From: Hymenopus coronatus
Lineage: Eukaryota > Arthropoda > Insecta > Mantodea > Hymenopodidae
Direction of reading: 5' to 3'
DNA length: 64,000 bases
NCBI GenBank assembly: GCA_030762935.1
Contig: CM060883.1
Span: 51,916,001-51,980,000 of the forward strand
Every line of letters starts with the position of its first letter. Position 1 is the first letter of the stretch. Of the stretch, positions 6,935-58,575 are shown one piece after another. The notes under the pieces are model-generated. The model worked only from the letters and a program-made list of their open reading frames with translations, was not told the origin of the DNA and ran no database searches. The translations under genes and the position numbers were made by a program.

Positions 6935-7006
6935 ACGGAGACGTCATTTATGACTTTCGAGGGACTTCAAATTCAAGGGGCAGTAAAAATAATGGAAAAA
7001 CTCACT
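6935..7006 (+). CDS. Ntf-2: NTF2 internal coding exon (T-E-T-S-F-M-T-F-E-G segment)
   Basis: Encodes 24 residues in phase 0, beginning TETSFMTFEG and ending KIMEKLT. It is preceded by a pyrimidine-rich acceptor ending ttttgcag and followed by the donor gtaagt. The peptide matches the middle of nuclear transport factor 2, the small dimeric carrier that brings RanGDP back into the nucleus. It holds the Phe-Glu pair aligning with Trp41-Glu42 of vertebrate NTF2, part of the Ran and FG-nucleoporin binding surface. The wording F-E-G-L-Q-I-Q-G is typical of arthropod NTF2. A short upstream ATG reading frame runs into this exon by chance; the splice signals and homology define the real boundaries. 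The preceding exon with the N-terminal helix was not found in 1-6934. Confidence 0.93.
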
Positions 7007-9082: not shown

Positions 9083-9197
9083 TCAATATAAAAATAATAG
9101 TTGCAACCAATCTTCACTTATCTTTTGGAATCCTTGCCTGGACTAGTTTTGCAACGATTTCATTGCATTATCAACATATCCTTTTGGTCTCTTTTTT
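9081..9197 (-). repeat. PLE terminal direct repeat (left)
   Basis: 117 bp, matches 11731-11847 with two differences, and overlaps the end of the endonuclease frame. Carries the hammerhead-like stretch 9141-9174 with the core GAAAC changed to AAAAC. Confidence 0.9.
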
Positions 9198-9624
9198 GAT
9201 GTTGTTTATTTACACTGTTATGGTTACTGCTACTAGGTGGATTGTGTACTAATGCATTGCTAACTACTGGAATCAAAACAAATTTGGTAAGAGTGTCAAT
9301 TGGAGGTATATCAAAATTCATTGCATGATTTCTACACTTTAATATAAATATTTTCTCCCAAACCATTAAATCTATGGGCCCATTTAAGTGTTTTAATAAT
9401 TTAACATCTGGATTTATTTCATGATTAAATTTCCAAAAATGTTCTGCTACAGCTGATTTATCAATTTGTTTGTATTTAATATTTCTAAAGTGTTCTTTTA
9501 CTCTGGTTTCCAAATGACGTTTAGTCTTACCAATATAAACAAGGTCACAATTTAAACAGTTTAATTGATAAATGCCAGATTTTTTATTTTTTGAAATTTC
9601 ATCCTTTTTAGAAAAGCCTAACAA
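9160..9624 (-). pseudogene. PLE GIY-YIG endonuclease domain (frameshifted from RT)
   Basis: Nicks target DNA to prime reverse transcription. KSGIYQLNCLNCDLVYIGKT shows the GIY and YIG halves with a C-x2-C pair between them. R-x3-R-V-K-E-H, with the catalytic Arg and following His, and AVAEHFWKFNHEI follow. It is separated from RT by a one-base shift in a run of A on the minus strand near 9630, so in the ancestor it was one RT-EN protein. The C-terminus runs into the terminal repeat. Confidence 0.88.
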
Positions 9625-11674
9625 ATTTTTTTATACTATATTTATTTTGAGGAACCAATATTATGCCATGCTCTTTGAAAATATTTGTGAATTTTTTATT
9701 TGCCCAAGGGTGATAAGTAAATTTTTTAAAAATGTAATTATCTTTTATTTTCTTAAGCGTAGAAATATCTTTAATAGCTTTTTGATATTTAAACTTCTCA
9801 ATTTTTTTATTTATAAAATCAGTATTAAAACCATTAATTAAAGCAGTGTTAATAATGTGTTTATATTCTTTATACAATTCATCTTTATTAAGGGGTAAAT
9901 TAATTAACCTATAAATTAAACTATTAAAAACAGCAAATTTATGTGAAAAAGGGTTAAAGCCATTATTTTTTATATAATTATCAGTGTGGGTTTGCTTTCT
10001 GTATATTCCAAAATTCAATTTATTGTCTTTTTTTATTATTTTTAAATCCAGGAAAGGGAGATAACCATCACTTTCAGTTTCTAATGTGAATTTTATAGCC
10101 TTATCTTGTAAATTTAAAAGTTTTAAAGCATCATTTACATGTTTATCAGGAACAATAGCAAATATATCATCTACATATCTATACCAAGTTTTAAAAATTA
10201 GAGGGAATGCTTTAGTGACCTGTATTTCAAAATAGCTCATGAAAAGATCAGCAAGAAAAGGTGAAAGTGGACTACCCATTGCTAAACCAGAAGTTTTTTG
10301 ATAGAATTTGTCATTAAAGCTGAAAAAATTTTGATCCAAACAAAGATTAGTAAGGATAACAAAATCATTTATTAAATTTTCATTCAGTTCTATAGAACTT
10401 AACCATTTTTTTAAAAATGTCAAAAGTTTTTCTCTAGGAATGCTTGGAAACAAAGCAGTTACATCAAAAGAAACAAGTTTATCATTAGTAGACAATGTAA
10501 TATTGCTGATCCTTTCAACTAGCTCAAAAGAATTTTTAATACTTAAACTCTAAAATTTTTCAAAATTAGTGAATTTTTTATTTAACCATTTAGCTAGGCT
10601 GTAAGTAGGTGAATTTATGCAATTTACAATAGGTCTCATTTTATTTCCAGGTTTATGAATTTTGGGAAGAGCATATATTCTGGGTAAAATTGGATTACTG
10701 ATTTTTATAATTTGCTTTTCTTTATTTGTAATACTTTTAATTTCATTAAGAGTCTTATTATAAATTGAAATGCAGGGTTTTAAAGGGTTAATATCAATGC
10801 TTTTGTAATCTTCACCTTGAAGTAAGAGTTCCATTCTGTTAATGTAATCAATTTTATTTAAAATTACAATGCTGTTACCTTTATCAGCTTTAGTATAGAT
10901 TACATCTTTTTCTTTTAATGATTTAATAATTTGTTTATTGTGATTTACTTTAGGGTGATTTTTATTCAAATTCTGTAATATTTTACTACATTTTTTTTTA
11001 ACCAATAATTTATTATTTTCATTTAAATCCTGACTAGCAATTTCTATATCTGCTACATAATCATCTATATTTTTTGAAAAATCTACACAGGTTTTTAAAC
11101 CTTTATTCAAAAAATTAATTTCTTTCTCATTGAAATTACAATTTGAAAGGTTAATTACATTATCTTTAGGGTTATTCCCTTTAATTGGTTTCAATTTATT
11201 TTGTTTTAAGCATAATTTATTTAACTTATTTTTCAGTTTATTTGTTTTATTTTTCATGCTAAAGTTCAAATTTTCAAACAATTTATATTCCAAATTTAGC
11301 CAAATTGAATTACCTAAAACATTTATAAGTTTAAGATGCAAATTATATAATTTCAGTTCAATGTTATTTAAGTTTTTAAAATGCAAACTTCTTTCAACTT
11401 CAATTACTTTCTTCTCTGCTGCTTTTTGATGAATACTATTATTGTCAAATTTAACAGTTTTTCTAACAAAAATAGGAGTTACTTTACGTTTTAAACACAG
11501 GTTTAAGAAACGTATATCTGCAAGAATATGTCTTCTTTTTTCTTGTAATTTCAAATATAGCTTAATTTCATGTTTAGTATTATTAAAATTCAGATTAAAC
11601 CTATAATTATTATATTCCATCACATCCATCATAAGCAATAACCTAAAATGTACTGAAACAAAGGAATGCTTCAA
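9608..11674 (-). pseudogene. PLE reverse transcriptase (one in-frame stop)
   Basis: Copies element RNA at target DNA. The long Lys/Asn-rich N-terminal region is followed by the fingers block (ADKGNSIVILNK), then LPKIHKPGNKMRPIV, typical of PLEs. After the in-frame TAG at 10550-10552 the same frame continues with motif A (VSFDVTALFPSIP, catalytic Asp), motif B (GLAMGSPLSPF) and motif C (YRYVDDIF, two catalytic Asp). Frames 10550-11674 and 9608-10495 are in phase, so one point mutation separates them. The chosen ATG at 11674 is simply the first in the frame, just inside the upstream terminal repeat. The frame ends at 9608 and passes to the endonuclease by a frameshift in an A/T run. Confidence 0.88.
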
Positions 11675-11730
11675 AACAAATAAACTTTTAAATGTAAAAA
11701 GAAGCTAGAAACAGTGAAGAATAACACAAA

Positions 11731-13167: not shown

Positions 13168-15749
13168 CCTTTTCGCAGATATGGACTTCATATAGCATCA
13201 ATTTTAAAATGCATGAGAACCGATATGAACGTCATATGATGTCCTGTGCATGCATGCATTTAATGCTTATTTAACCCTAATAATTTTAATTTTTGTCTTT
13301 TATAGTAAATTTAAATAAATTCTAGAATAAATAAAGTCTTACCTTTAAAGGTTCCTTTTTGAAAGTTACATCTCGAAACATGGATAGGCACATAAGGGCA
13401 CATCTCCACATTCACGGCATATCATGTTAGTCTCTTTACAAACTCCTTTTTATGGCACACCAAACACCTTCGAAATGGATGCAATTTTTTTGCTCTCAAT
13501 GGTATCCTTTTAGGAAAATGTTTTCCTTCAAGTCTGAGGGGTGCAGGGGTTGTATATTTCTTACCCCCCTGTATGAAGAGGCCTCTGAATGCTATAGTGC
13601 TCAATTAGGCTACGAGCCATTGATATGCAGAACTCCAGGTAGGTCATCATCTTGCGTGGGTTTAGAGTTCTCCAAATTACCAAACAATTGTATATGGTGT
13701 TATCCAGCTGGTGCAAAAATACCTTTTTATACCATTTAACTGTTTTTCATAAAGAAGGATGTGATTGCATACCTGATCTACTAGATCCACACCCATATGC
13801 ATATTGTATTTCTGGATAACATCCGACTTGAAAATTTACATTTTGGTGTGGGCATCTATTTTTCCAGTGTCAATCATTAAAATCTTGAGGCTGCAATTGG
13901 ACAATGCTGTAACCACCCTCCTATCTTGCCAAGTAATGTAGGTCAAGGGTGGGAGCTGACGCACCTGCATTTCTCCTCTGCTTAGATTCTTTGTATTCAC
14001 GTTCTTTGGCAAACCAACACGATTTGAACATACTGTTCCAATTGCATTTGTGTTCCTTTTGTATAAGGCTATGTATAATTTAGGGGAGCTGTACCAATTA
14101 TCTAAATATATAGTTGAGCCAGGGCTGAACACCAGTCATATTCACCTGTATAAAGCTTAGCATTAAAAAAAAATATATATACACAGTTCTACCCTGGTTA
14201 AGTATAGGTTCCATCAGGTGCATTACTATGGAGCCAGATAACCCCAAATCTTTGTCTCCAGTATTATCAGTTCCTTGACCAGTGTAAATGCAGCTATTGT
14301 AAAGATATCCCGTTTTACTTTCACAAAGATCAAAACTCTTTATGCCAAATCTGGCCCTCTTTGTTTTGATGTATTGCTTCCAGCCTAAGCAGCCCTTCCA
14401 AAGCATCAAGCTTTCATCTACAGTGACTATATCACCAGGCATGTAATTTTCTTTGAATTTTGAAATAATATATTCCAAAACTGACCTCATTTTGTGTAGT
14501 TTATCGTTTACATTTTCTGTGCCAGTGAAATGAAGGAATGGCAAAATGTAAGTAAACCTGTTATTTGACATGCATTTCCCAAAAAATGGAGTAGCTAGCA
14601 TATCATCTGTAGACCAGTACATGTCTAAAGTTGGTTCACGAATAATGCCCATGAGCGTAATTAGACCAATTAGCCTGTAAATCTCATTCAATGTTACTTC
14701 TGTCCACTGCTGAATTCTACTCTTAGGCCCTAAATTGCCTTTAGAATTCAGGTCTTCCTTCACCTTACTCGCATATGCATTTGTTTATGTAACAATGAGA
14801 GACACTAAGTCAGCAGTAAAAAATGTTGTTAAAATGTCAATTGGTTGGCTGTCAGAAGTCAGCTGAGCTTGGGGTTGTACTCCAGAGGCTGTGCTCGTGA
14901 AGATATGTCTTTTTGTTTTGGAGTCATTTTGACTACCCCACAATGTTGCTTCTTCATGAACACCTGAAGGAAGAGAGTCACTTTCTTCCTCACTGCTACC
15001 TATATCCTCGACGCCCCCCCTCAAAATCTGAAAACTTGCCGTCAATATCAAAATTACTATCATATAGCAAACAGTCCTCCACATTATCTGAAGTTATTTC
15101 TGAAGCCTGTACACTGCCTTCACGAGCTAATTTGTTAGCTACATTGCTAGTCGAAGCCATGGTTAGAACTGAGATAAAACATTTTCAAAGGCGCTTTCCT
15201 GATAGCTAAAATAAAAAACTGTGAATCCCATCGCTACATGACTCTACCATAAATCCCTGCTGTGTATTTATTCTAAGGCGTAAATAGAAACGCCGACAGA
15301 GAGGTTTGATTTCTTTGTAGCTTGGGTGTTCCTCAGAAACATGCAACGTAAATTCATCGTAGCAATAAACGAACGATAAAACCTTGAAGCCGAGAACATT
15401 GTGCTTAGATAGCTAGCTCTACTTATATACATTTGTACACGCTTAGCACAAGCCTGACTCACAAATTAGGTGCATTCAACGTACAGAATGACTCTTACCA
15501 TATAAAAAATTAGTGATATTCAAACTTTTGTTAATATAGTCTCTCTTTTGTTTCTATGATAGATGTATAGTGCCTTTAATGAGCTTTAAGCCAGTTTTTG
15601 TTTCATTAAAATGTCTTAATAAATACCAAACATACGAATGTTTATGTATGAAGCACATTTACCTACATTTAACAATTTAAATGCCTTGAATTGTTTATTG
15701 GGTATCCATTACCAGCCGTGCAGCATTTAAATGGTCATCGCTCAAGCGG
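13168..15749 (-). mobile_element. piggyBac element, copy 1
   Basis: Flanked by TTAA at 13164-13167 and 15750-15753, the piggyBac target duplication. The left end is CCTTTTCGCAGAT and the right end (reverse complement) CCGCTTGAGCGAT, a short imperfect inverted repeat. The transposase gene starts at about 15160 on the minus strand. Closely related to the copy at 19771-22459. Confidence 0.87.
13370..15160 (-). pseudogene. piggyBac transposase, copy 1
   Basis: From ATG at 15160: acidic N-terminus (IGSSEEESDSLPSG), the piggyBac core with YRLIGLITLMGI, then KENYMPGDIVTVDESLMLWK (first catalytic Asp), YLDNWYSSPKLY (second Asp), ITWQDRRVVTA (third Asp), and a basic Cys-containing C-terminus (FRRCLVCHKK) of the RING-like type. 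Defects: a frameshift at a G7 run (15014-15020), a second near 14780, an insertion of about 65 bp near 14110-14175 before the D-N-W-Y block, and further shifts. It cannot make a full protein. Confidence 0.85.
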
Positions 15750-16261: not shown

Positions 16262-17345
16262 CAAAAGTCTGTTTAATACCAACGTGGTATTTATGTCCAG
16301 TATCATCCAAAGATGCAGCACAAAGATGTTTTGGACCCCCACCCCTAAGCTATTCTTTATAGGGCTTCCAAATTTTCAATTTCCTGTTTTTTATTAAAAT
16401 ACTGTATATTAAAGATATCACAAATAAAATGTATATTTTGAATTTTCTGGGATTAGCCTTTGATGCCCTTTTCATTCTGGATTACTTTTGCATAACTGCT
16501 AAACTGTAATATATAGACAACATCTTATTGCTGTTTTATATCTTCTGTAATTTAGCTTTTGAGTAAAATGATTCAAATGTTAAGGGATGAGAAGGCCCTA
16601 TAGAGTATAATAAAATTGTAATTGTGTTAATAAGCAATTTTTTGCTATAAAATGCTTTTAATTGGGGTTATTGAAAGATAAAATAGACTCTCTTTAAAGC
16701 AAAAAATGTAGATCTCGTTAAAGCATAATTTATGACAACATATTTTGTTGAGTTAAACATTTACAAGATATTCATTGTGTTTGGTTTAAATTTCCCTATA
16801 ATACTTTTCTCAACTGAGAAGTCATCCATTTTTCTTTTTCTTCCCCCATCCTGGTCATGCAAACAGAATAGACTTTTATGCCATCACATAGCAACCAACT
16901 CTTAAAAGATTTGACTGTTGCTTTAGTCTAATGAATTCCCTTATTCTCCTTGAGCCTAAAAGAAAATGTGTAATAAAAGTATTATTACTTATGTTTATCT
17001 TGATTAGCATAAAGTTGGATGAATAAGCTTTTGTAAGAATGGTTTGTTACAGAATAGGTAGATGAGGGTATGTAACTGTAACATAACAGACTTTTTCTGT
17101 GAAGTAATGCATACATCACATAGCAACCAACTCTTAAAAGATTTGACTGTTGCTTTAGTCTAATGAATTCCCTTATTCTCCTTGAGCCTAAAAGAAAATA
17201 TGTAATAAAAGTATTATTACTTATGTTTATCTTGATTAGCATAAAGTTGGATGAATAAGCTTTTGTAAGAATGGTTTGTTACAGAATAGGTAGATGAGGG
17301 CATGTAACTGTAACATAACAGACTTTTTCTGTGAAGTAATGCATA
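16262..17345 (+). repeat. R1 copy b, 5'-truncated, with internal 232 bp tandem duplication
   Basis: Starts within the mid-part of R1 (aataccaacgtggtatttat) and runs to the tail. The tail segment 16882-17113 is repeated immediately as 17114-17345. Confidence 0.75.
16882..17345 (+). repeat. tandem duplication, two 232 bp units
   Basis: The units 16882-17113 and 17114-17345 differ at only two positions that I find by eye (gtgtaat/atgtaat and gagggta/gagggca). Each starts catcacatagcaaccaactc and ends gaagtaatgcata. The duplication is much younger than the host repeat. Confidence 0.9.
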
Positions 17346-19938: not shown

Positions 19939-21875
<1,937 letters not shown>

Positions 21876-26879: not shown

Positions 26880-26978
26880 AGTCTTAGCTTCCAAAAAATC
26901 AACCGAATCATAACAGCTGTAGACTCACAGCCTATGTTTGATGGAGGAGTTCTTATAAATGTTCTTGGTAGACTGCAG
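26880..26978 (+). CDS. Ntf-2: NTF2 internal coding exon (S-L-S-F-Q-K-I segment)
   Basis: Encodes 33 residues in phase 0, from SLSFQKINRI to VLINVLGRLQ. The acceptor is cttttgcag and the donor gtaaga. It joins in frame to the 24-residue exon about 19.9 kb upstream and covers the central beta strands of the NTF2 fold, with the family signature S-Q-P-x-F-D-G-G-V-L-I-N-V-x-G-R-L-Q. This is the last constitutive coding exon: both terminal exons begin with an acidic D-x-D-P-P-H-A-Y peptide that continues directly after the Gln. The introns on both sides are packed with transposon relics. Identity as an NTF2 exon is near certain. Confidence 0.95.
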
Positions 26979-38754: not shown

Positions 38755-38868
38755 ACAGATGAAGATCCACCACATGCCTATATCCAGACTTTTGTGCTGA
38801 AGCCAATAGGGACCAGTTTTTATGTGCAGCACGATCTCTTCCGACTCGCATTACACGACAGTGTCTAG
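38755..38868 (+). CDS. Ntf-2: NTF2 alternative last coding exon A
   Basis: Encodes 37 residues plus TAG, in phase 0 after an acceptor ending gtctttag. The peptide starts TDEDPPHAYIQ and ends FRLALHDSV. It supplies the last three beta strands of NTF2. The Asp residues at exon positions 2 and 4 align with Asp92 and Asp94 of vertebrate NTF2, which contact RanGDP, so Ran binding should be kept. Usual NTF2 length is about 130 residues, and exon lengths 24+33+37 plus a missing N-terminal exon of about 35 fit. A second, same-length exon 13.5 kb downstream is the alternative. The 3' UTR would begin at 38869; a possible AATAAA is at 40085-40090, with no proof of use. Confidence 0.93.
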   Translation, partial: TDEDPPHAYIQTFVLKPIGTSFYVQHDLFRLALHDSV

Positions 38869-40482
38869 ACCACTAGATATTCGTCAAAATGCATTACCTC
38901 ACTGCAGGCAAGAGTTCAGTGTGTTGTGTGTTAAATGCTTTGTTTCCCTTCCCTTGCTTTTTGTATAAAGTTGCACAGTTTGTGAAGCATTGATATTACC
39001 CTTGCATGTTGGCTGACAACAAACAGGGAAAAGGAAAAAACTTAAACTCACGAATTCCTGGCATACCACTCGCTGAACACTGCTTGCTCCTGAATAGTAA
39101 ACAAATTGCAGGAAATAGAAATCTAGTGCTAGTGTTGGTTAGAAAGTAGTTTTAACCTCTGATGATAATGTTCTTCTTTTTTTCAAATAGTAAGCAAGCT
39201 GCATACAAGTTAATCCTCTTTTCAGTTTTAGCAGACTATTGTTAACACTTTTCAGTCAATAGCATAAAGAGTTAAACATAAAACTGTTCTAAATTAAATG
39301 GATGGAAGTTTAAAGTTTGCTATTTTTAATAAGAGTGCTTATTTATTTTACTTATTCCAAATCTTATGTTACATAATTATGTTCCATTTGGACATCATGC
39401 ACAGGATATATTTGTTAAAACTCATATTTCTTCTTCTTAACCACCAGTTTAGCTTACTATCTTAGTTTATACTGGTATTTGGAATATATGTAAATATATA
39501 GGTTGTATTTTTACTCATATTTAGCTTTCGTGTATAATATATATTTATATGTTAAATAGTCAATTAATTTTAGATATAACCATTAAAGTAATATAAGAAG
39601 AAATAGCAGTCTTGGACAACAAAATGTTCTTTTTCTTGATAGGTTTCAGTCTATAAAAGGGTTCCTTTAATTGTAGGATAATCTAAAGGGATATCCCGAA
39701 GACAACTTAAGCAGCACAATAATTGTATGTAGTAACATATGTTGAGGACTCAGTTCGTAGGTATACTAACAAACCATGACAAATGACCATTACATCCCTC
39801 TAGTACAACAGTCATTTTAAGCTAACTTTTTCTCTATTTTTCTTTTTCTTTTCTTTCTTCATATTTGCAACAAGGTAGGTTGATAATTTTTAAGTTAATA
39901 CAATTTTCTCTTGTGCTGTTAAGGTTTTGCGTGTATGCTGTGAACACATTTTTTAAGAGTAGAAAATCTAAAACATTAATATTTTTAATGAATGTTGATT
40001 TTGTTGAAATAACTTAATATTTCCTGAATGAAATTCATTTATTAAAAACCTAGATACCCTTAAAAACATAAACATTTCATTTAGAATAAATAATTTAAAT
40101 TTTATCTTGTATTATATTAATAATGATCTGTCCTTTGCATGGCAGTGTTATGACCCTCATTCTTGATGGTATGTGCTATCAGTTGATTCCACTTATCCCT
40201 TGCAAGCTGTTGCTGTACAGATTTCCTACCTTGTTTATATTTTCCCACCTATGAAATATATATGTGATTTTGTTTTGCCCCCCCCCCCCCCAATATGAGC
40301 AACATTATTTGTCTATCAACAGAGCTCCCAAGGCCCTAATAACTGGTTGAGGACTTCCGTGCTCATCACTCTTTCTGAGGATCGCCTCAGAAGTCTTCTT
40401 GCTACTAATATAGATCAACTTAATACTAGGGTCATACTCAAAGTAGTGAGCAACTTCTAATATGTATTTTTAGAGAACTATG
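38869..40482 (+). other. probable 3' UTR of isoform A followed by intron for isoform B
   Basis: No transposon recognised. The only AATAAA noted here is at 40085-40090. A C14 run lies at about 40279-40292. Confidence 0.3.
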
Positions 40483-41465
40483 TACATCATTGTAATTCAT
40501 AGACTTTTCTCTCATTTTTCAGCATAGTCTCCAATTCTTTGTACCCAATTTTCCCATCAATCTGCAAGTTTGAAAATGCCTTTATAATAGAACTCCATTC
40601 CAGCTGCACAAAGACACTGACACACTGCTTTCTGAATATCCTTCCCCATTTTATAGTGTTGGCCTCGCATCTGTTTCTTAACACAATAAAAAAGATGGTA
40701 CTCGGAGAGTGCCAAGTTGGGACTGTGGGGAGGATGTGGAAGAGTTTCCCACCCAGATATTCTGATCTTCTCCATAGTGACACAGGCAATGAGAGGATTA
40801 TCTTGTTGTATGATCTTTCCATGACACTTATTGTGCACTGCGACAAAGGTGTCTGGATATAGCAGGAAGAATTTATGATTTGCCCAGGTTCAAAAAAATC
40901 AACCAGAATGCTACCCAGTGCATCCCAGAGAAAGCTACTCAAAGCCTTTCTAGCAGATTACACTGTCTTCTCCTTCATTGGCGAATCCAAATGGTGCCAT
41001 TTCATATTCTGGCATTTTGTTTCAAGCTCTTAATGATGGAACCAACTTTCATCGCCTGTCACAATACTTGTCAAAAAATTGTCACTTTCATTTTGAAATC
41101 TCTGAAGAAGGATATGCTGATGGTTCTTCTCTGAAGTTTGCGGTAAAGGGGCCCAACAGACTCAGATTTTTCGATAACCTAAGCTTTGTATTATTTCTTG
41201 CATTGTGCTATGTCCTACTGCGAGTTGTGCAGCAATTTCATCCACAGTGATACACCTATCTGCTCTAATGATCTATCATTTCTTTCCGTGTTACATTCAC
41301 AGGTGACTGCTATGAGATTCATCTTGGATACACATTTTCTCATCTTACCCATCTCCTAACATTGCTAGCACCCATGCAAACATCTCCATAGGCTTGTTGA
41401 AGTCTGAGATGAATTTCAGCAGAAGGTTTTTCCCTCTTTAACAAGGAATTCGATGAAGCTCACTG
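40483..41465 (-). pseudogene. mariner transposase relic
   Basis: Minus-strand blocks in order: L-G-Y-R-K-I near 41190, SIVTGDESWFHH (first Asp) at about 41060, FLWDALGSILVDFFEPGQII, Q-Q-D-N (second Asp), HPPHSPNLALSEYHLF (third catalytic Asp replaced by Glu, and P-D to P-N), and a C-terminal D-Y-V-E-K-like end near 40490. Frameshifts throughout. Terminal inverted repeats not recognised. It lies in the intron between NTF2 exons A and B. Confidence 0.65.
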
Positions 41466-42444
41466 TCAAAACAAAACATTGATGTCTGCCATTTTGGAAA
41501 TACTGCCTGTGGTCACATGATAGAAGCAAATGATGTCAATATGGCTGGCTACATGCGGTGTAAAGTTTGTATTGGCAATCCTACCAGTTAGAGGGTCTAA
41601 ATGGTTGTCATATATTGAAAACTACCCACCTGATATGAGCAGCACAGCTATAGTTACAGCTTTCACACATTTGCAGCATTGTTATAAGATTGAAAAATTA
41701 GTTCATTTGTATTTTCAAGATCATTCCAACATATAGCATTAGAACCTGAAAAATCAATATTCTCAACCTGAACCACTGCCTCCTATAAAAAATATGATTT
41801 GCAACTGAAACAGTGGTTTTCTTGATGGTGTCACATATGTTCCACATTTCACAAACCATTGCACAATTTAAACTAACTTTTATATGTACATGGCAAAAAT
41901 ATTGTTCAGGTTAGATGACTCAGCACTCTTAATTTTGATTAATTTTTTTTTCTCTCTTACCTACATAATATGCTGCTCTGTGGTAGCTTTAATTGGCAGT
42001 TTATATACAAAATTAAGATCTCAGTTTTTACCAAACTCCTTTTTAGCTCTTTTTCACAAGAATGTAATTACAGGAATATTTGTTCCTGGATTGTGTAATT
42101 TTTTTCTAACTCAACATTACCTCTTTTGGTCGGAACTGATTTTTCCTTAGAAAACAAAACACATGACCAACAAAACAAAATATTATAGTCCTATACATGC
42201 AGATTCACTTTGATACACTATCCTTTACCATTAATTTGTCTGAGATTTTTAATTATACAGTTAGAGAATGCTTTAGCTCATGTTTTAATGATATTTTCTT
42301 TTACAGTAAAACTAAAGCTTCACTACAGATAAATACACAGTTTAGCACTATAATCCAGGATTTTACTGGCATTTATTGTACATCTTAATGAGTAAGCAAG
42401 ATTAGTGTAAAAGCTGAAATATTTTTATGGCTACAGTTTTACTG
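41466..42444. other. intronic, nothing recognised
   Basis: AT-rich; plus frames of 63-88 codons are hydrophobic but carry no motif. Confidence 0.3.
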
Positions 42445-42779
42445 TAAAAAATCTGATGTGTTCCATTCACATGACTCTTTCTAGTTATTCTCCAAAAAAA
42501 TGTTTCTTATGAAAGATTATTCTTTTATCTACATCATCCTAATCAAGATAAACATTAACAGAATTGGTTTATTACTTGCTTCTTTGTAAGTAGAAGGGAG
42601 ATAAGGGAATATACTAAGCTAAAGCAATACTCACTGTCGCTCTATAAAACAATTGAAATTTGCCTCTCTTTGCTTTCTAGGAATAAATAAAAGAGAGGCA
42701 AAAGAAAGGTGACTTCCTGTTTGAGAAAAATTTAAGTAGCTTAAAACTGAAACCAATAACACAGAATATCTGAGAAATA

Positions 42780-44115
42780 CGAGGGCCGTTCAGAAAGTAG
42801 CCTCCGGTTGATTGCAAGAAATTCACCAAGTTAAATAAAAATATTTTAATATATACATCTTACAACTACATCTTTGCACTATTTTTCTACATAGTTTCCA
42901 TAACGATTGAGGCACTTATCGTATCTGTTCACAAGCTTTGAAATTCCTTCTGCATAAAAATCACCCGCTTGTGCCTGGAGCCAGCCTGTGACCGCATCTT
43001 TGAGCTCTTCGTCGTCACCAAACCGCTGGGACCCGAGCCATTTCTTCATATGCATGAAGAGGTGATAATCGCTTGGCGCCAGATCTGGGCTGTAAGGTGG
43101 ATGGTTGACAAAGTCCCACTTGAAGGACTCAAGAAGGGCTGTTGTTCTGCGAGCAGAGTGAGGACGGGCGTTATCGTGCAAAAAAAACGATACCGGAAGT
43201 CAGCATACCACGGCGTTTGTTCTGTATAGCCCGTCGTAATTGTTTTAGTGTTTCACAGTACACGTCTTGATTAATGGTCGTCCCACGTTCCATGAATTCA
43301 ACCAACAACACCCCTTTTGCATCCCAAAACACTGTTGCCATCAATTTTCGGGCAGAAAAATCTTGCCGGGCTTTTATTGGTTTGGTAGGCGAATTTGAAT
43401 GTGCCCACATCTTTGATTGTTCTTTTGCCTCAGGGTTCACGTACTTAATCCAGGTTTCGTCCCCGGTCACGATTCTGTTTAATAATGGTTCACCTTCGTC
43501 CTCATAACGTGACAGAAAGTCTAATGCAGAGGCCATTCTTTGAGTTTTGTGGTGGTCGGTAAGAATTTTGGGCACCCATCGTGCACAGAACTTACGGTAA
43601 CCCAATCTTGCTGTCACTATCTCTTACAAGAGAGTCTTAGAAATCTGTGGAAAATCAGTAGACAACTCCGACATTGTGAAACGTCGGTTTTCACGAACTT
43701 TTGCATCAACTGTCTGAACGAGTTCGTCCGTGACCAATGATGGTCTACCACTCCTCTCTTCATCATGAACGTTTTCTCGTCCACTTTTAAATAACCGTAC
43801 CCATTCACGGACCACTCCTTCACTCATAACTCTTGGTCCGTACACGGCACAAAGCTCACGATGAATAGCTGCTGCAGAATATCCTTTGGCTGTAAAAAAC
43901 CTTATAACAGCACGCACTTCACATTTGGCGGGGTTTTCTATTGCAGTACACATTTCAAACGGCCACAAACACTAAACTAGCGCAGGTACGACTTTCACTC
44001 GACCACGGCTTGATGCCGACTGACCTGCTGAGTGCGTGAATGCACAGATGGCGTCGCTACTCCCCCCACTACCCGCACTGTGACCGATCGGAGGCTACTT
44101 TCTGAACGGCCCTCG
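42780..44115 (-). mobile_element. mariner with perfect 27 bp terminal inverted repeats
   Basis: 1336 bp. The ends 42780-42806 and 44089-44115 are perfect inverted repeats starting CGAGGGCCGTTCAGAAAG, flanked by TA at 42778-42779 and 44116-44117. Inserted into R1 copy h. Base composition is richer in G+C than the surroundings, consistent with recent arrival. Confidence 0.95.
42879..43968 (-). pseudogene. mariner DD34D transposase, two lesions
   Basis: Starts MWPFEMCTAIENPAKCEVRA at 43968 with an N-terminal helix-turn-helix region (YSAAAIHRELC; GRPSLVTDELV). In-frame TAA at 43624-43626, then the same frame continues LGYRKFCARWVPKILTDHHK (W-V-P-K-x-L linker) and IVTGDETWIKYVNPE (first Asp). A one-base expansion of a T run (A run at about 43180-43187 on +) shifts frame just before HDNARPHSA (second Asp), followed by YSPDLAPSDYHLF (third Asp), with 34 residues between the second and third Asp. 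All catalytic residues are kept. Length is normal for mariner, about 350 residues. Confidence 0.9.
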
Positions 44116-44502
44116 TAGTTAACTTTACAACAAAGATGTATATTACATAAATAGTCTGTTTTAATGACATTTACAATTTTTGTGCAGTAATTTTTGTCTA
44201 TCTCTTACAGTTTATCAGTTATACAAAATTTATACCAAAGTCGTCCAGAATGAAGAGGTCTTCAGAGGCTATTTCCTGAAAATCCAAGATATACATTTTG
44301 TTTGTCATAAAAATATATTAAGCATATGTATTTTAATCAAATCATTGGAGCCATTTTTTGAGAACATCATCCAAATTTTCGAAAAAGGTTCGATGAAGGG
44401 TAGTTGGGGCGGGGGAATTTTCCTGAAAATGTTTATCACATCCTTTGAAGATACTGACTTAAATATTGTTGTTTGGTATTTAACATTTTAGATTTATGCT
44501 AT

Positions 44503-45432
<930 letters not shown>

Positions 45433-45779
45433 TTCAAAAAATGCTTTGTTTTGATTCAAAGGATCCTAAAACATGTATATCTGGTGAAATCTCAGTAATG
45501 AATGTTTGGGTGGAATACAATATTTTCTTTATCCATATGTACATTGTACATACATGCTAGAGAAAGTAAAAAAGGGGCATCGAGTCATTATAATTGATTT
45601 TGCTGTTGCACTTATGTTTCTGTTGTTCAACATTTTCTATAAATTTAAAATCTGTCAGGAAAGTTACTTTAAATTTAATTCATGATATTTTTTGCTAATA
45701 AATGGGCTGCCCCTACATATCTTTCTCATATTAAGTTTGTTTGAACAAAATGTTTTTAGTTTCCAAAGTCTGTTAAGCA

Positions 45780-46500
45780 CTTGTACCCTCTCTTTCCACG
45801 AACACTGCACACAATTGCTTTTCAATTCCCTGGCATATAAAATTGACTAGCTTGACTTCAATTTCTATTACTACGTGGATACAATTGCATTCCATTCTGT
45901 AGTGTCCAGATGTGAGAAATTTGAGGCCAATATACTTTTTACTTTCAGTGTCTATGCAGCATTCAGACACCTGCCTTCTACAAATTTATGTACATTCTAC
46001 CTATCACAGTAGTCACTGAAATATAGGACTGAAAGTAAAAGGAGGCCTAATGCAATCTCACTGCCATTCCTTCCTGATTTACATGCTGTCCACATGTACC
46101 AGACTCCTTTGGGAATTACAATGTAAACTGTAAAATTATAATTATGTTGCCAGACATCACCTAGCACCTGTAGATAAACATTTATGGACACAATTTTGTC
46201 TTTAGAGAACACTTGCCCTTCCTCTTTTCTTCCAAGAACCACTTAAGTCCTTTAAGTGGCCTTCATAGTTGGATGGATTCCTTTCCTCTGTCTAATGCAG
46301 TACATATTTTGATTGAACCCCTAATTGTCATATTTATGTCCATGAGCTTTATGAGATTTCATGAAATTCCTTACCTATTTGTCTGGTTGCCTTTCATGTT
46401 TCTAAGTCACAACATGTTTTCAAGGTGTGCTTCCAGTTCTTTCAAATTTGAAAGTATTTTTACGCCCCAAAAAAATTCAATTATCCTATGCTGAGTTTGA
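45780..46500 (-). pseudogene. transposon-derived ORF with GH-x-M-E-C-x-H-x-x-I-E motif, family not named
   Basis: Two minus-strand frames: 46242-45997 with VWQHNYNFTVYIVIPKGVWY and SGRNGSEIALGLLL, and 45970-45773 with LKFLTSGHYRMECNCIHVVI. The order Y-N-x-x-V-Y ... M-W-x-x-x-x-x-G-R-x-G-S-E-I ... K-F-L-x-S-G-H-x-x-M-E-C-x-x-x-H-x-x-I-E recalls a large family of repeated, probably transposase-derived arthropod proteins whose name I cannot give. Upstream sequence to 46500 may add an L-K-E-L-x-x-H-L block. Frame breaks show decay. Confidence 0.4.
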
Positions 46501-47189
46501 ACTTGCATCCTTGGAAACCAGGAGCTAGCATGGTATCCTTAGACCACAGAGGATGACGCAGTCCTTCCAGATTGTTTGTTAGGTACAATATCATATTTTG
46601 TCACTGCCTTGACCAGGTTCATATTCAGAAGACAGTAGATAACTGAAATTTAGTCACAAAGTAGGCCTTTACCAAAGGCCTCATTTCTGATTAACAATAT
46701 TTATTATAATTCATCCATTTCTGAATCAGATCCTCTATAAAAATCAGGTGGCTTGAAATCATGGAAGCTGTCAGTAATTCTGTAGCTGGTGTGTATTCTT
46801 CTAATGTCCTGTTCTTCATAGAAATGGCCCAGTTCTGAGACACTTGTCACCATTCTCAGTAACCTGACTTGATCCACATTTAGACCAGTATATAATAAGT
46901 CTGTCAGGAATTAAGTGAATATTATTCACAGTCCAGACTATTTTATCAGAGCAGTTCTAGTTATAAAAGTAACAGTAACTTATATGATGTTAAGCAAAGT
47001 AGTTTGCCATCAGTTTTCTGTGCTAAAATGTATGTAAATATTACTTACCAGGATTATGCTCACCATTCAATTCAGCCATTTGCCTTTGCCTGAAAATTTT
47101 GATCAACGTGTTTGCCATATTTAAAGTGAACTGTACAATGCACAAAGAGGCAGCATAGCAAAAACAGAGTATGTCATCAGAGCAGAGTC

Positions 47190-47530
47190 ATGCTCCATGG
47201 TGTAGTGATTACCATCTAGCCTAAACCCAAGATTGCATATTCAAACCTGACAGAGGGTGATAAATATTTTCAGACTTGAAAATCCTTAGCATGGCTTCCT
47301 TCAAGAGGGAAGTAAAGTTGGTGGTCCTATGTAATGTTGATTTGTACGTAAAAAGGGTTCCTGGACAAAGTTCCTCCATTTTGCATCCTAAAGTGCCAAC
47401 CGTGGGTGATGAGCCAATCCCTCATCACCATGGCCCATATCAGCAAACTCGTACACTAGAATATTGAGTCTTATCATGGAAACACTGTAACAATGCCCAA
47501 TGCTCCAATTAGGAGCTACAGGAAATAAAC
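47190..47530 (+). repeat. tRNA-derived SINE-like repeat (family S1), fuller copy
   Basis: Starts with gctccatggtgtagtgatta, an A-box-like head resembling the 5' half of a tRNA, then a weak B box (tattcaaacctgac), then the shared body aaaatccttagcatggcttc. The right part ends in ctccaattaggagctacagg. An RNA polymerase III promoter layout is visible, but the sequence is diverged. Confidence 0.6.
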
Positions 47531-48108
47531 TAGCTCAACAAAGCAGCAGCCGTGCATTATTTTCCAGATAAAGATACAAGCACTGATAATTAATATGCTA
47601 TTACAAATGAATAACTCCAGTTGTCTACACTTGATTCTGCAGTACAAGTTTTGTCTGTATTAAAAAGTGCTATCTATAATTGCCTATTTATTGCACTGAA
47701 TGTGTCATTCTTTTGTTATCCACTTGTAGGATTAGACAGGTTACCACTGGGACAAGCCATAAATAAAGATAACTCAAAAACCTTAAAATTGGGTTTTCTA
47801 GCTATAGTATAGAACCCATGATATACCTACCTACTCCTCTGACGGTACTTACATAAAAAGTGTTGCAAAATAGTTGCACATCATAATGAAGATAATAATG
47901 TTTTACCCTAAAAAGTTGAGATGATAATGACATTTAATGCATAAATCTTGCATGGCTTGCCTTGAGCAATTGCTTTCGATTAATGGACTATGCCTCTACT
48001 ACATTGGCCATCACTTAATTGAGTGATTTGATATCTCTGTTATTTCTCTAATACAAATTGCTGTAATATCTTCTTGAGTTCATCATGTTCAGAAGTATTT
48101 TAATGCTG

Positions 48109-48398
48109 GATAGGTAGAGTCAGACTGAAAAATTCAATACCACAGCCGGGATTTGAACCACGGATCTCCCGATCTCTAGCCAGTTGCTTGCCACTGTACT
48201 ACCATGGCATAGCATTGAATTTCTCAACTGACTCGCATGTTTCCCGGTAAACCACAAGATGATCTCAAATTATTTTGAGATGATAACCCCAATGGTGACT
48301 TACAATGCTGTAAATACTTTAAGTCTCAGGATTCATAGTATAGCCGTGGTTCAAATCCTGGCTGTGGCATTGAATTTTTCAGTCTGACTCTACCTATC
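48109..48398. repeat. foldback element with tRNA-like arms
   Basis: Left arm 48109-48163 (gataggtagagtcagactga...) and right arm 48344-48398 are near-perfect reverse complements of about 55 bp. Each includes a B-box-like gatttgaacc / ggttcaaatc. Between them is a tRNA-like A-box region on the minus strand (about 48200-48210), and a perfect small hairpin ATCTCAAA/TTTGAGAT (48263-48282). Related copies lie at 16177, 58310 and 58612. Confidence 0.75.
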
Positions 48399-48989
48399 CA
48401 ACTCCTGTCCTACATATGGCTTGTGTGAAAAAAAATTAAAACCAATATTTTAATGCTTATTGCTGGGTACTCAGATAATACTTTTATTTAACTATTTCAT
48501 TTTTAAAAAGGTAAGCAGATGTTTGTCAAGGTTGCAGCTGATTTAACTTCATTGATGCAAAGACCTCTAATAAACTAACTACATTGTTTTATACTTTGCA
48601 TTATATTACAATGTATACTATTGGCAGCGTTATAGGATTTTTTAATACTTAACCAATTTTTCCATGTCCATCATATGTAGTTTTAGATCTTTAGCATGTT
48701 TTCATTGTGCATGCTAGTTGTACATGCTTTTCAAGCCATTCCTCTTTGAGAACTGACAAAGCTAACTAAATAGAATTATTGTACCATAGGTCTCTAGGCT
48801 CATTCCTTAAAATAAGTATGAAGGTCACTAGATATGTATTAAGATACGGAATATTGGTCACCCTTGGGGAAAGTATTGTTGCTTAACCAAAAAGCTGACT
48901 CATCGGTAGGCAGAGCACTGTTGCATCTTTCATTTTTCCCTCTTTTTGTGTTTGAAGTCTGGAGTGTGAACATTCTTGTAAGTGCATTT

Positions 48990-49985
48990 GGGATTCAGAG
49001 AGAACATTTTCGTGCAATAATCTTGTATGACTTCAAATGTGCCTTAAATGGACCGCAGTCAGATGATCATTTTAGGGGGCTTTTATGGATTATTCTCCAT
49101 CATGTGTCACTGTGTTCCACAGTTTGGAGAATTCAAGAGGGGATAGCAATCTCGTAAATATGTGTGTCACACCAACAGCAGTGACCTAAAAAACATCACG
49201 CTGTTGAAACAATGATCAGGGGATCATTGACTAAAACTAATCTACAAGGACATTGAGCTGGTATTAGTGATTAGTTGCTGAACATCTTTGTGTAAAATGT
49301 TTCTTCAAGATGGGTACTCCATAGTTTATCTGAAGCACAGAAGCTCCATAGGGCAGAATGGTGTCAATTAATGCTGCAAATGTTTAACTTTGGAAAGTCT
49401 TGCCATATTTCAGATAACATTATGGGGGACAAAATATGGATATCCAAATAATATATGATATATGAGTTTGACCCAGACCCAAACGTCAGTCCTCCAGTTG
49501 CGTGTTCCCAGATGACCAGCCACTGATCAAGGCCAAGAGAGCAAAGAGAAGAAACTGGTTGCTTCTTTCTTCTCCACAAGTGGTCACAGTTGTGCTCAAA
49601 AATCAGAAAATTGGTACTGCAAAATGATACACAGAAGTTTGCCTTCTGGAAGTGTTTGAAAATATGAAAGAAAAGTGTCCAAAGAGAGGACTAAGGGGCA
49701 TTTTGTTGTATCATGACAATGCTCAGCCCTCACCACAAACGTAACAGTGAAGTTTCTGCAAAGAACTGAACAAAACTATTGACTCATCCACCTTGTAGTC
49801 CCGATCTGGCACCATGTGATTTCTTCCTGTTCTTTAAGGTGAACGACCGGCTTCAAGGTCACTGATTTTCTAGCCCTGAAGGCTAGAAACCGAGTGACAT
49901 GCTTTCAGAAGTGGTTCCAGAGGATAGAACACTGCATACAGTGCCAGGGAGAAACTGGGATAAAGAAAACGTTTCTATGAGTATT
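48990..49985 (+). pseudogene. mariner transposase relic (plus strand)
   Basis: The N-terminal block EHFRAIILYDFKCAL begins at about 49000. Then come degraded Y-x-F-D-P-D-P-K, Q-S-S-S-C-V-F-P-D-D-Q-P and K-A-K-R-A-R blocks around 49470-49545, YHDNAQPSPQT (second Asp) near 49715, a P-D-L-A-P-C-D-F-F-L-F block (third Asp) near 49800, and a C-terminal WFQRIEHCIQCQGE end near 49955. This is the order of a mariner subfamily distinct from the 42.8 kb copy. Multiple frameshifts; termini not found. Confidence 0.62.
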
Positions 49986-51744
49986 CATTATTTGTTGTCT
50001 CAATACTTACCTACTGACCATCATAATTGGCTAGGGACAAGTTGATAAGGAAATCAGAGACAGCTTAAAAAAGATTGACAAATTGAGTGTGACTTTCACA
50101 CTCAATATCAATTGGCAAATTAGCAACATATTTACACAAACTGCTTCATTGCTAAAGTGAATTGTTCATTGTTATTAACAATTTTAATTATAGTAATTTT
50201 TGTAATGGTAAAACACAATAACCATAAACCTATCATTTTTAACCACTTTTCTACTTTTAACATGGGAGCAAGTATTAAGATGAAGCAGTTTTACATTTTC
50301 AGCATTTATCACAGATTTATCGTGAAGGACATAATGACACTTGCAGCACTCACAGTGGCCCCCTCGTTCAAGAAAGCACAATGCATATCTCACAACACTG
50401 CTTTAAAAGCACTTTCTTTGCATATTGTGTCATTTTGATTATTTTTATGACTAGGAAATAGGTGTGTTTACACTCTGTAGAGGTCTATTTTGTTTCAGGT
50501 ATGCAGTGATGTCGAGGACTCATAATATACGATTATTTCCGGAAAGTTATTCATTTCTGCAAAGTAATACATTAAGTGGTCCAAGCATGTTATCATTCAT
50601 TGGCCCTTGAGGTCATATGGCAGATTCTTAGGAACCCAGTGGACACTAACTTAATAAAATTATTGTGTTAGGTACGATATCTTACATTGCACCACAATAT
50701 ATGCTGAACCCCTCAGAGAAGGTTTGCAGAGGAGTCCTCATCTGTCAGGTTCTAAGGAATCCAGTGGACACTAAGTTAACAATTTTTATTATGCTATGCA
50801 CGATATCATACACTGTGCCTTAAGAAAAGCTGAACCATTCAAACAAGGTTTGAGATGAATCCCCCCGGTCATTCTAAATTGCTGTCTTAATGATTGTAAC
50901 ATTCTGCTCTGTTGCAGCTGTTATTGGTCACCTAGAATGTGGTAAATCAAGGTTTTCACAGCCTTCTTCGAGTAATGTGCACCATCTAGAGATACTTCAG
51001 TCTTCTCATTTCACATTAATTCTAGAACTGGTAGTTTGTCTTCATATTTTCATTGTAGATGCCATGTGAACCTTTCTCTGAAACTTTAAGATTTCTCTAT
51101 TCTAAATCTGCATGAAGGTTTAGCTTCTCCAGCCATGCCTAGTGAGGTTGTGTTCTTGTAAGTACACTTACTGTGCATTTTCAACTTTCTATTAGAAGAT
51201 TTAGAACAGTAGGACCTATGGATCATCTTTTAACCTTTTATATGGCAAGATGCTTTTCTATTGCTAAATTAATTTGAGTTTTGATACTTTTGTGTATTGA
51301 TATAAGGAACAGTTAATTGTGGTTTTTAGGTGAATACTCTGCTGGAAAACGACTATTAGCATTGGTTGGCCATCTGTGCATTTTTTCTGATGACCTTAGC
51401 AAGGAAGCTTGTATACAGGTTTAGGAACTTTCTTAAAATTTTACATAATTTAAATTAGGTTAAAATTACTTAAAATTAATACTTAGTTAATATGAACAGC
51501 CTCTTAAAAGTTTGAAGCTAATTTCTCACAATAATTCTTGGGCCTTCCTTACCATGTACTCAATTCATGAATTTGATACTACACACTAGAGGTTTACTAC
51601 TATATTAGTAATGTTGGTATGTTATATTAATGCCCTACAAAGGGAATGGTTTTAACACATGAGTTGTTAAAATAAACAAAATATGATATTCAAAGGTGAG
51701 AATAAATATTTTTAACACTAATCTGATAACATTGAGCCTAAGCC
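49986..51744. other. intronic, nothing firmly recognised
   Basis: Two related blocks, about 50630-50720 and 50755-50860 (aaggaatccagtggacacta / aggaacccagtggacactaa), form a diverged tandem pair of about 125 bp. No gene. Confidence 0.4.
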
Positions 51745-52120
51745 CACCTGGGTAGTGTGGGGATAGCATGTCTTCCTCACATTCAAGAGGTTGTGAGTTC
51801 AAATCTCACTTAGGTTATCCAGATAGGTTTTTATCAGTGTTTTTTCCTTATCGTCAGATGACAAATGGTGTGTAACTTTAAGCTCCATCATTTGAGCATC
51901 ATTTCACAGATTTCACGTCTCGTCCAATATGACGAAACAGGTTAAAGGACGTTGAACTACAGTGTTTTCTTCCTTATCCTGAGATGACAATGTTGAGTAA
52001 CTTTAAGCTCCATGGACCTCAAAATCATTTGGACATCATTTCACAGATTTCATTCCTCATCCAACATGACGAGCCAGGTTAAAGAACGAACTACCAAAAA
52101 AAAAAAAACAGAAAGCCTGT
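51745..52120 (+). mobile_element. tRNA-derived SINE-like element with duplicated body
   Basis: tRNA-like head (gtgtggggatagcatgtctt ... gttgtgagttcaaatctcac with B box). The body unit (tccttatcgtcagatgacaa ... gacgaaacaggttaaaggac) occurs twice, about 51841-51955 and 51968-52090, the second ending in a run of 12 A and cagaaag. Located about 260 bp upstream of NTF2 exon B. Confidence 0.65.
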
Positions 52121-52378
52121 TTATCTCTTGTAAATTCCATTATCTTTGTTTGGGAAATGTAAAAGTATGACAAGTTCTTGCTTGTCATTTGTTTTTCCTT
52201 GTGACTAATAAATTCAGTTGAAGAACAGGGCAATAGAAAAGTAAAAGTCTCTGGTTTTCTCCCATGTTGTACTAAAATTGAATATCAGCTATATTGTGGT
52301 TGGTTGCATTACATGTATTTTCTTAACTCTTTCTCCTAATTGGATTTACTAATTATATTTTGATGTTTTGTTTTGCAG

Positions 52379-52492
52379 GCAGATGATGATCCCCCACATG
52401 CATACTCGCAAATATTTGTGCTCAAGCCACTAGGCAATTCCTTCTTTTGCCAGCATGACATCTTTCGCCTGGGCATCCACGACACAGCTTGA
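52379..52492 (+). CDS. Ntf-2: NTF2 alternative last coding exon B
   Basis: Encodes 37 residues plus TGA, in phase 0 after the acceptor tgttttgcag. The peptide starts ADDDPPHAYSQ and ends FRLGIHDTA. It is identical to exon A at 24 of 37 positions with no gap. Both Ran-contacting Asp positions, the central F-V-L-K-P and the terminal H-D-x-F-R-L motif are kept. Clear differences are Ile to Ser at position 10, Thr to Ile at 12, Val to Cys at 24, and Ala-Leu to Gly-Ile near the end. The open frame, clean acceptor and mostly conservative changes argue for a functional alternative exon rather than a dead duplicate. Use of A or B requires either splicing past A or polyadenylation at A. Confidence 0.92.
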   Translation, partial: ADDDPPHAYSQIFVLKPLGNSFFCQHDIFRLGIHDTA

Positions 52493-58309: not shown

Positions 58310-58575
58310 ACAAGCCATTTGTAGGACAGGAGTTGGAAGTTGAGTCAGATTGAAAAATTCAATGCCATAGCCGAGATTTGAACCACAGATCTCTTGGTCT
58401 CTAGCTATTTGCTCTATCACTGAGCAACCATGGCAGAGCATTGAATTTCTCAACTGACTCACATGTTTCCCGGCAAACCACAAGTTTATCTCAAATTATT
58501 TTGAGATGACATATCCCAATGGTGACTTACAATGTTGTAAGTACTTTAAGTCCCAGGATTTATTGTATAGCTAAC
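58310..58575 (-). repeat. tRNA-like repeat, same family as the foldback element, copy 2
   Basis: Shares aagccatttgtaggacagga, the arm with gagatttgaaccacagatct, an A-box-like stretch (minus strand ttgctcagtgatagagc, near-perfect tRNA-like), and the body with the ATCTCAAA/TTTGAGAT hairpin. Lacks the inverted right arm. Possibly a SINE read on the minus strand. Confidence 0.65.

Follow-up and report, generated by a model that had tools for sequence, protein, structure and literature searches.

In the Ntf-2 gene of Hymenopus coronatus the last coding exon is very probably duplicated in tandem, and the two copies (A and B) would be spliced alternatively to the same upstream exon. The window, i.e. 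the whole 64-kb stretch of DNA analysed here, contains four coding exons which, judged from their sequence, are those of insect Ntf-2 (nuclear transport factor 2, Pfam PF02136). The arrangement looks like an old one maintained by selection, and not like a curiosity of this genome, as both types of protein tail recur in eight insect orders.

Structure of the gene and its two last exons

The positions of the exons and of further features of the window are given in Table 1. The partial proteins assembled with either last exon, i.e. the forms without the first exon, match the Pfam NTF2 family (PF02136) far above the cut-off of 21 bits (A 76.1 bits, B 75.5 bits; E-values 3.9e-21 and 6.2e-21), in agreement with the gene identity originally predicted. 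The best PDB sequence match of the A form is NTF2 at 1e-20, with G3BP2 at 7.8e-9. In the first exon of Table 1, 23 codons align with residues 35-57 of human NTF2. Joined to the second, it encodes a protein stretch identical at 56 of 57 residues to the NTF2 of Gryllus, Schistocerca and Bacillus rossius, a likeness which by itself points to a probable polyneopteran insect; most relatives possess an NTF2 of 130 residues. No exon with a start codon was retrieved from the 64-kb window by N-terminal queries, two of them insect-like and one human (best E 0.065), nor did the N-terminal 36 residues of three relatives yield a match resembling the conserved start (best E 0.18). As the N-terminal matches are weak throughout, the first coding exon is probably located before base 1 of the window.

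Table 1. Coding exons, repeats and mobile elements in the window (positions counted from its first base)
Feature	Position	Strand	Description
NTF2 coding exon	6935-7006	+	24 codons (TETSFMTFEG...), phase 0 at both ends; AG acceptor, GTAAGT donor
Retroelement	9160-11704	-	in the 19.9-kb intron; reverse transcriptase (PF00078), then GIY-YIG (PF01541), in separate frames
PF13843-family transposase, first copy	13836-15093	-	in more than one frame
Tandem repeat	16882-17345		232-base unit, two head-to-tail copies, 99 percent matches
PF13843-family transposase, second copy	20340-21692	-	in more than one frame
Last shared NTF2 coding exon	26880-26978	+	33 codons (SLSFQKIN...GRLQ), phase 0 at both ends; GCAG acceptor, donor CAG/GTAAGA
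Alternative last coding exon A	38755-38868	+	TDEDPPHAYIQTFVLKPIGTSFYVQHDLFRLALHDSV then stop
A-B interval	38869-52378	+	presumably 3' untranslated region of A followed by intronic sequence with mariner remnants and a long CA repeat
Mariner-type transposase piece (PF01359, PF17906)	40487-40957	-	between A and B
Mariner-type transposase piece (PF01359, PF17906)	42879-43971	-	between A and B; spread across three open stretches
CA repeat	44504-45430		between A and B; uninterrupted, 463 copies, 100 percent matches
Alternative last coding exon B	52379-52492	+	ADDDPPHAYSQIFVLKPLGNSFFCQHDIFRLGIHDTA then stop
tRNA match	58363-58434	-	past exon B; 31.1 bits, cut-off 29

Exons A and B are 114 bases long each, comprising 37 codons followed by an own stop codon, both in phase 0 on the + strand, and span residues 91-127 in human NTF2 numbering. 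The two introns before A are 19,873 and 11,776 bases long, and the A-B interval spans 13,510 bases. The two exons share 24 of 37 residues without gaps; these positions, the phase and the lengths are all as originally predicted. The description of both acceptors as good holds insofar as an AG directly precedes either exon, but exon A is preceded by TTTAG, unlike the GCAG of the other three. With the count of pyrimidines in the acceptor tract as the sole measure of splice strength, A reaches 13 of 17 and B 12 of 17.

With exon A as query, exon B is retrieved from the window at E = 2e-16, the next match being at E = 0.26, and an exhaustive scan of both strands of the window for a third exon copy revealed no place with at least 12 of 37 matches; a chance likeness of the two is therefore excluded. 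Identity is confined to the exons and drops to background level in the first 100 flanking bases: 36 of them are shared upstream and 29 downstream, whereas 2000 random draws gave a mean of 27.4 per 100 and a maximum of 42.

Two tail types across insect orders

Three protein searches were evaluated for the best 120 of their 430, 422 and 447 matches, respectively; the names, where given, are all of insects. From 171 fetched proteins 60 were chosen by hand for spread over the orders, of which Polyplax P0069 was dropped, its cut motif being missing. The resulting table of 70 tails contains the two of the window, 59 of relatives and the second tails of nine of the 13 fused models described below. 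Sorted by their identity to the window exons, 33 tails are of type A and 37 of type B. Both types are found in Orthoptera, Blattodea, Hemiptera, Thysanoptera, Hymenoptera, Coleoptera, Lepidoptera and Diptera. The exon A tail is identical at 37 of 37 residues to those of Periplaneta (P0006) and Zootermopsis (P0009), and that of exon B matches Gryllus longicercus (P0078) and Zootermopsis (P0163), both of type B, at 35 of 37.

Between orders, tails share on average 29.5 (A-A), 28.4 (B-B) and 24.4 (A-B) of 37 residues. Within one order the mean for A-B is 24.6 of 37, i.e. A and B are hardly closer within an order than between orders, so that the pair split before these orders arose, without subsequent homogenisation. 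In a tree of the 70 tails plus the human one, the A tails group together with the exception of a single row (support 74), although support in this tree is modest, as it is built on 37 residues only. The exception is Onthophagus (P0095), which is A by identity and placed among B; two braconid tails, P0073 (Microctonus) and P0168 (Cotesia), stand between the A and B groups. These three tails display a mixture of A and B residues, for which faster divergence or exchange between the exons is possible.

The presence of the pair in Polyneoptera as well as in Hemiptera, Thysanoptera and Holometabola suggests an exon duplication at least as old as Neoptera, a lineage of some 380-400 million years. The great age originally proposed for the arrangement is thus borne out by the comparison across insects, in which two tail types persist in eight orders and group apart in the tree.

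Tail residues and predicted structure

The residues Asp92 and Asp94, which we take to be the acidic pair contacting RanGDP, are present in both exons and in all 70 tails (A 33/33, B 37/37), as had been anticipated from the two exons; the structure of the D92N,D94N mutant of NTF2 is among the PDB matches. Phe119, Arg120 and Leu121 are likewise kept in 70 of 70 tails. The products of A and B should both be able to bind RanGDP.

The two window exons differ at residues 91, 93, 100, 102, 108, 110, 113, 114, 118, 122, 123, 126 and 127 (human NTF2 numbering). Nine of these 13 differences are located in the last 20 positions and four in the first 17, and the clustering near the C-terminus proposed earlier does not hold, the excess in the second half being non-significant (Fisher p 0.30). 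Across the tail table, Leu occupies residue 123 in 32 of 33 A tails, where 34 of 37 B tails have Ile, and Thr at residue 91 occurs in all 33 A tails but in only 2 of 37 B tails. At residue 102, nearly all A tails (31 of 33) carry Thr, and most B tails Ile, Thr or Val; residue 118 is Ile in 36 of 37 B tails and mostly Ile, Leu, Val or Met in A tails. Residues 102 and 118, both different in A and B, are mutated in the solved NTF2 structures M102E and M118E, mutations presumably made to break the NTF2 dimer. A literature search for the mutants M84E, M102E and M118E gave no useful match, and the accessible part of PMC10402242 was of no help either.

For the Gryllus A and B forms, the best single-chain models reach a mean pLDDT of 84.8 and 88.1, respectively; of five models for each form, two for A and one for B had means below 50. 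In the two best models the strands agree as far as residue 124, and their best PDB matches are mammalian NTF2, with TM-scores (query length) of 0.84-0.87 for A and 0.86-0.90 for B. According to these models, the two cricket forms would both adopt the NTF2 fold.

Given the conserved contact residues and the common predicted fold, both proteins might be equivalent in function, with the pair used and the choice of tail serving only the regulation of the 3' end through different untranslated regions. A functional difference between the Drosophila transcripts RA and RB is also left open in the available part of PMC8645118. Against such an equivalence, each tail type carries residues of its own across orders (123 and 91), a contrast which is favoured by the sorting of tails according to window identity; we regard regulation without protein difference as possible but rather doubtful. 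Most likely, the tails tune dimer packing or tissue use and do not confer a new activity. As a speculation, to which we attach only limited confidence, two chemically distinct NTF2s from one gene might predate the radiation of Neoptera and differ at the dimer interface, AA, BB and AB dimers with different affinities for Ran or the pore setting a tissue-specific import of Ran; in view of the damselfly Hetaerina (see below), A may have originated from a B-like form at the root of the winged insects.

Both forms within single species

Eleven species pairs were picked by eye among the matches listed, both forms being present in each; we assign the species to Orthoptera, Hymenoptera, Hemiptera and Coleoptera. 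In all 11 pairs the fronts of 92-95 residues are without any difference, and the forms diverge directly after GRLQ, which is the splice junction of the window gene. Their tails possess 24-28 matches across 36-37 residues. These annotations support an alternative use of both tails in relatives, the paired forms being mostly automatic database gene models that reflect annotation and not measured junctions.

If A and B were not alternatives of one gene, one of them would belong to a second, paralogous Ntf-2 gene or to the remnant of a duplication, and such a gene could sit outside the 64-kb window. Within it, human and cricket NTF2 queries match each shared exon only once, without a second credible copy. 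Old separate paralogues would moreover diverge in their fronts, which are identical in 11 of 11 picked species, and the two forms of Gryllus longicercus carry one and the same name, R5R35_009387. A separate paralogous gene, disfavoured above all by the identical fronts of the paired forms, is hence very improbable, and we retain the reading of alternative last exons within one gene.

Several species are represented by one form only among the matches listed, the damselfly Hetaerina (B-like) being one of them, so that one tail may have been lost, or may have originated later, in some lineages. A motif scan further detected two tails in a row in 13 of the 171 fetched proteins (142-217 residues). 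We rejected these fused proteins as real products and read them as artefacts of gene modelling, because their joins fall at different places within A; they were used for exon order only. The second of the two tails resembles the window's B more than its A in all 13 models, and the first is closer to A in 11; the remaining two first tails are those of Hermetia P0003 (24 matches to A, 25 to B) and the truncated Rhynocoris P0143 (7 to each). The order A-then-B, as in the window, thus appears to be widespread.

Selection on the two exons

By codon position, A and B match at 30, 28 and 15 of 37 sites. The counting method yields a pN of 0.22 and a saturated pS of 0.77 (Fisher p 1.4e-6, a value which serves only as a guide, the sites of one short exon being non-independent). 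As the silent sites are saturated and the protein is kept, the exon copies are old and have been held by selection at the protein level. This comparison between the window exons supports the selection proposed in the original prediction. That one of the exons is a dead relic surviving by chance in this genome is highly unlikely, since both retain an open frame, an acceptor, the phase and the invariant residues, exon A equals a cockroach and termite tail throughout, and silent change has run to saturation over a preserved protein.

Proposed splicing and 3' ends

In the mechanism that we propose, the shared exon ending at 26978 would be joined either to A or to B. Since both are in phase 0, either would complete the same NTF2 fold with a different set of last 37 residues. 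Exon A, the nearer one, would be terminal and possess a polyadenylation site of its own, transcripts ending after it encoding isoform A; where A is skipped, the polymerase would continue and B be used. An mRNA with A joined to B would possess a splice junction beyond the stop of A and be exposed to decay. Within 1.5 kb, AATAAA occurs once after A and twice after B (2.2 expected) and ATTAAA three times after each (1.6 expected), i.e. polyadenylation words are present in about chance number.

Repeats and mobile elements

The introns and the A-B interval harbour several repetitive features (Table 1). The retroelement in the 19.9-kb intron has a domain make-up which we take to be that of a Penelope-like element, and the two transposase copies of the PF13843 family are presumably of piggyBac type. 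The CA repeat between A and B is perhaps young or partly an effect of assembly. The weak tRNA match past exon B is perhaps a tRNA-derived short repeat.

Comparison with known systems

By returning Ran to the nucleus, NTF2 keeps most nuclear transport running. With its tails swapped in eight insect orders, this core carrier seems to be required in two versions in insects. Mammalian NTF2 (PDB 1oun, 5bxq) has the same fold, with the acidic pair at 92 and 94.

The closest known case is the same gene in Drosophila melanogaster, compared here by the description in the accessible part of PMC8645118 alone. According to it, Ntf-2 (CG1740) comprises four exons and four transcripts, of which RA is the most highly expressed, and one exon is specific to transcript B. 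All detected retroduplications derive from RA, a DNA duplicate is without the transcript-B-specific exon, and the authors discuss the Ntf-2 duplicates in the frame of male germline conflict. The Drosophila parallel drawn in the original prediction thus stands as far as a published B-specific exon is concerned, but this exon is not called a last exon in that part of PMC8645118. A search of mostly non-subscription literature, including PMC9437273 as far as accessible, found no further paper on the exon pair and none tracing the Ntf-2 tails across insect orders. As database annotations, the isoforms X1 and X2 of NTF2 are known, for example in Gryllus longicercus, Harpegnathos saltator and Rhodnius prolixus, with the same front and the same two tail types.

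The pair would correspond to the tandem duplicated exon substitution described in PMC9741552, in which homologous neighbouring exons are swapped between isoforms; according to the accessible part of that source, C-terminal cases account for 77 of 236 human events, and such events are present in 154 Drosophila genes. Exons A and B are homologous, neighbouring and of the same orientation and phase, and the isoforms are identical outside the homologous region in all 11 picked pairs of relatives. The name Ntf-2 is absent from the main text of PMC9741552. The residues of C-terminal swaps are more exposed in that survey, as far as it was accessible, whereas the swap of the window gene covers two predicted core strands. 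With the window pair, a known arrangement gains one more example; what is new is the evidence for the depth and stability of that arrangement in insects.
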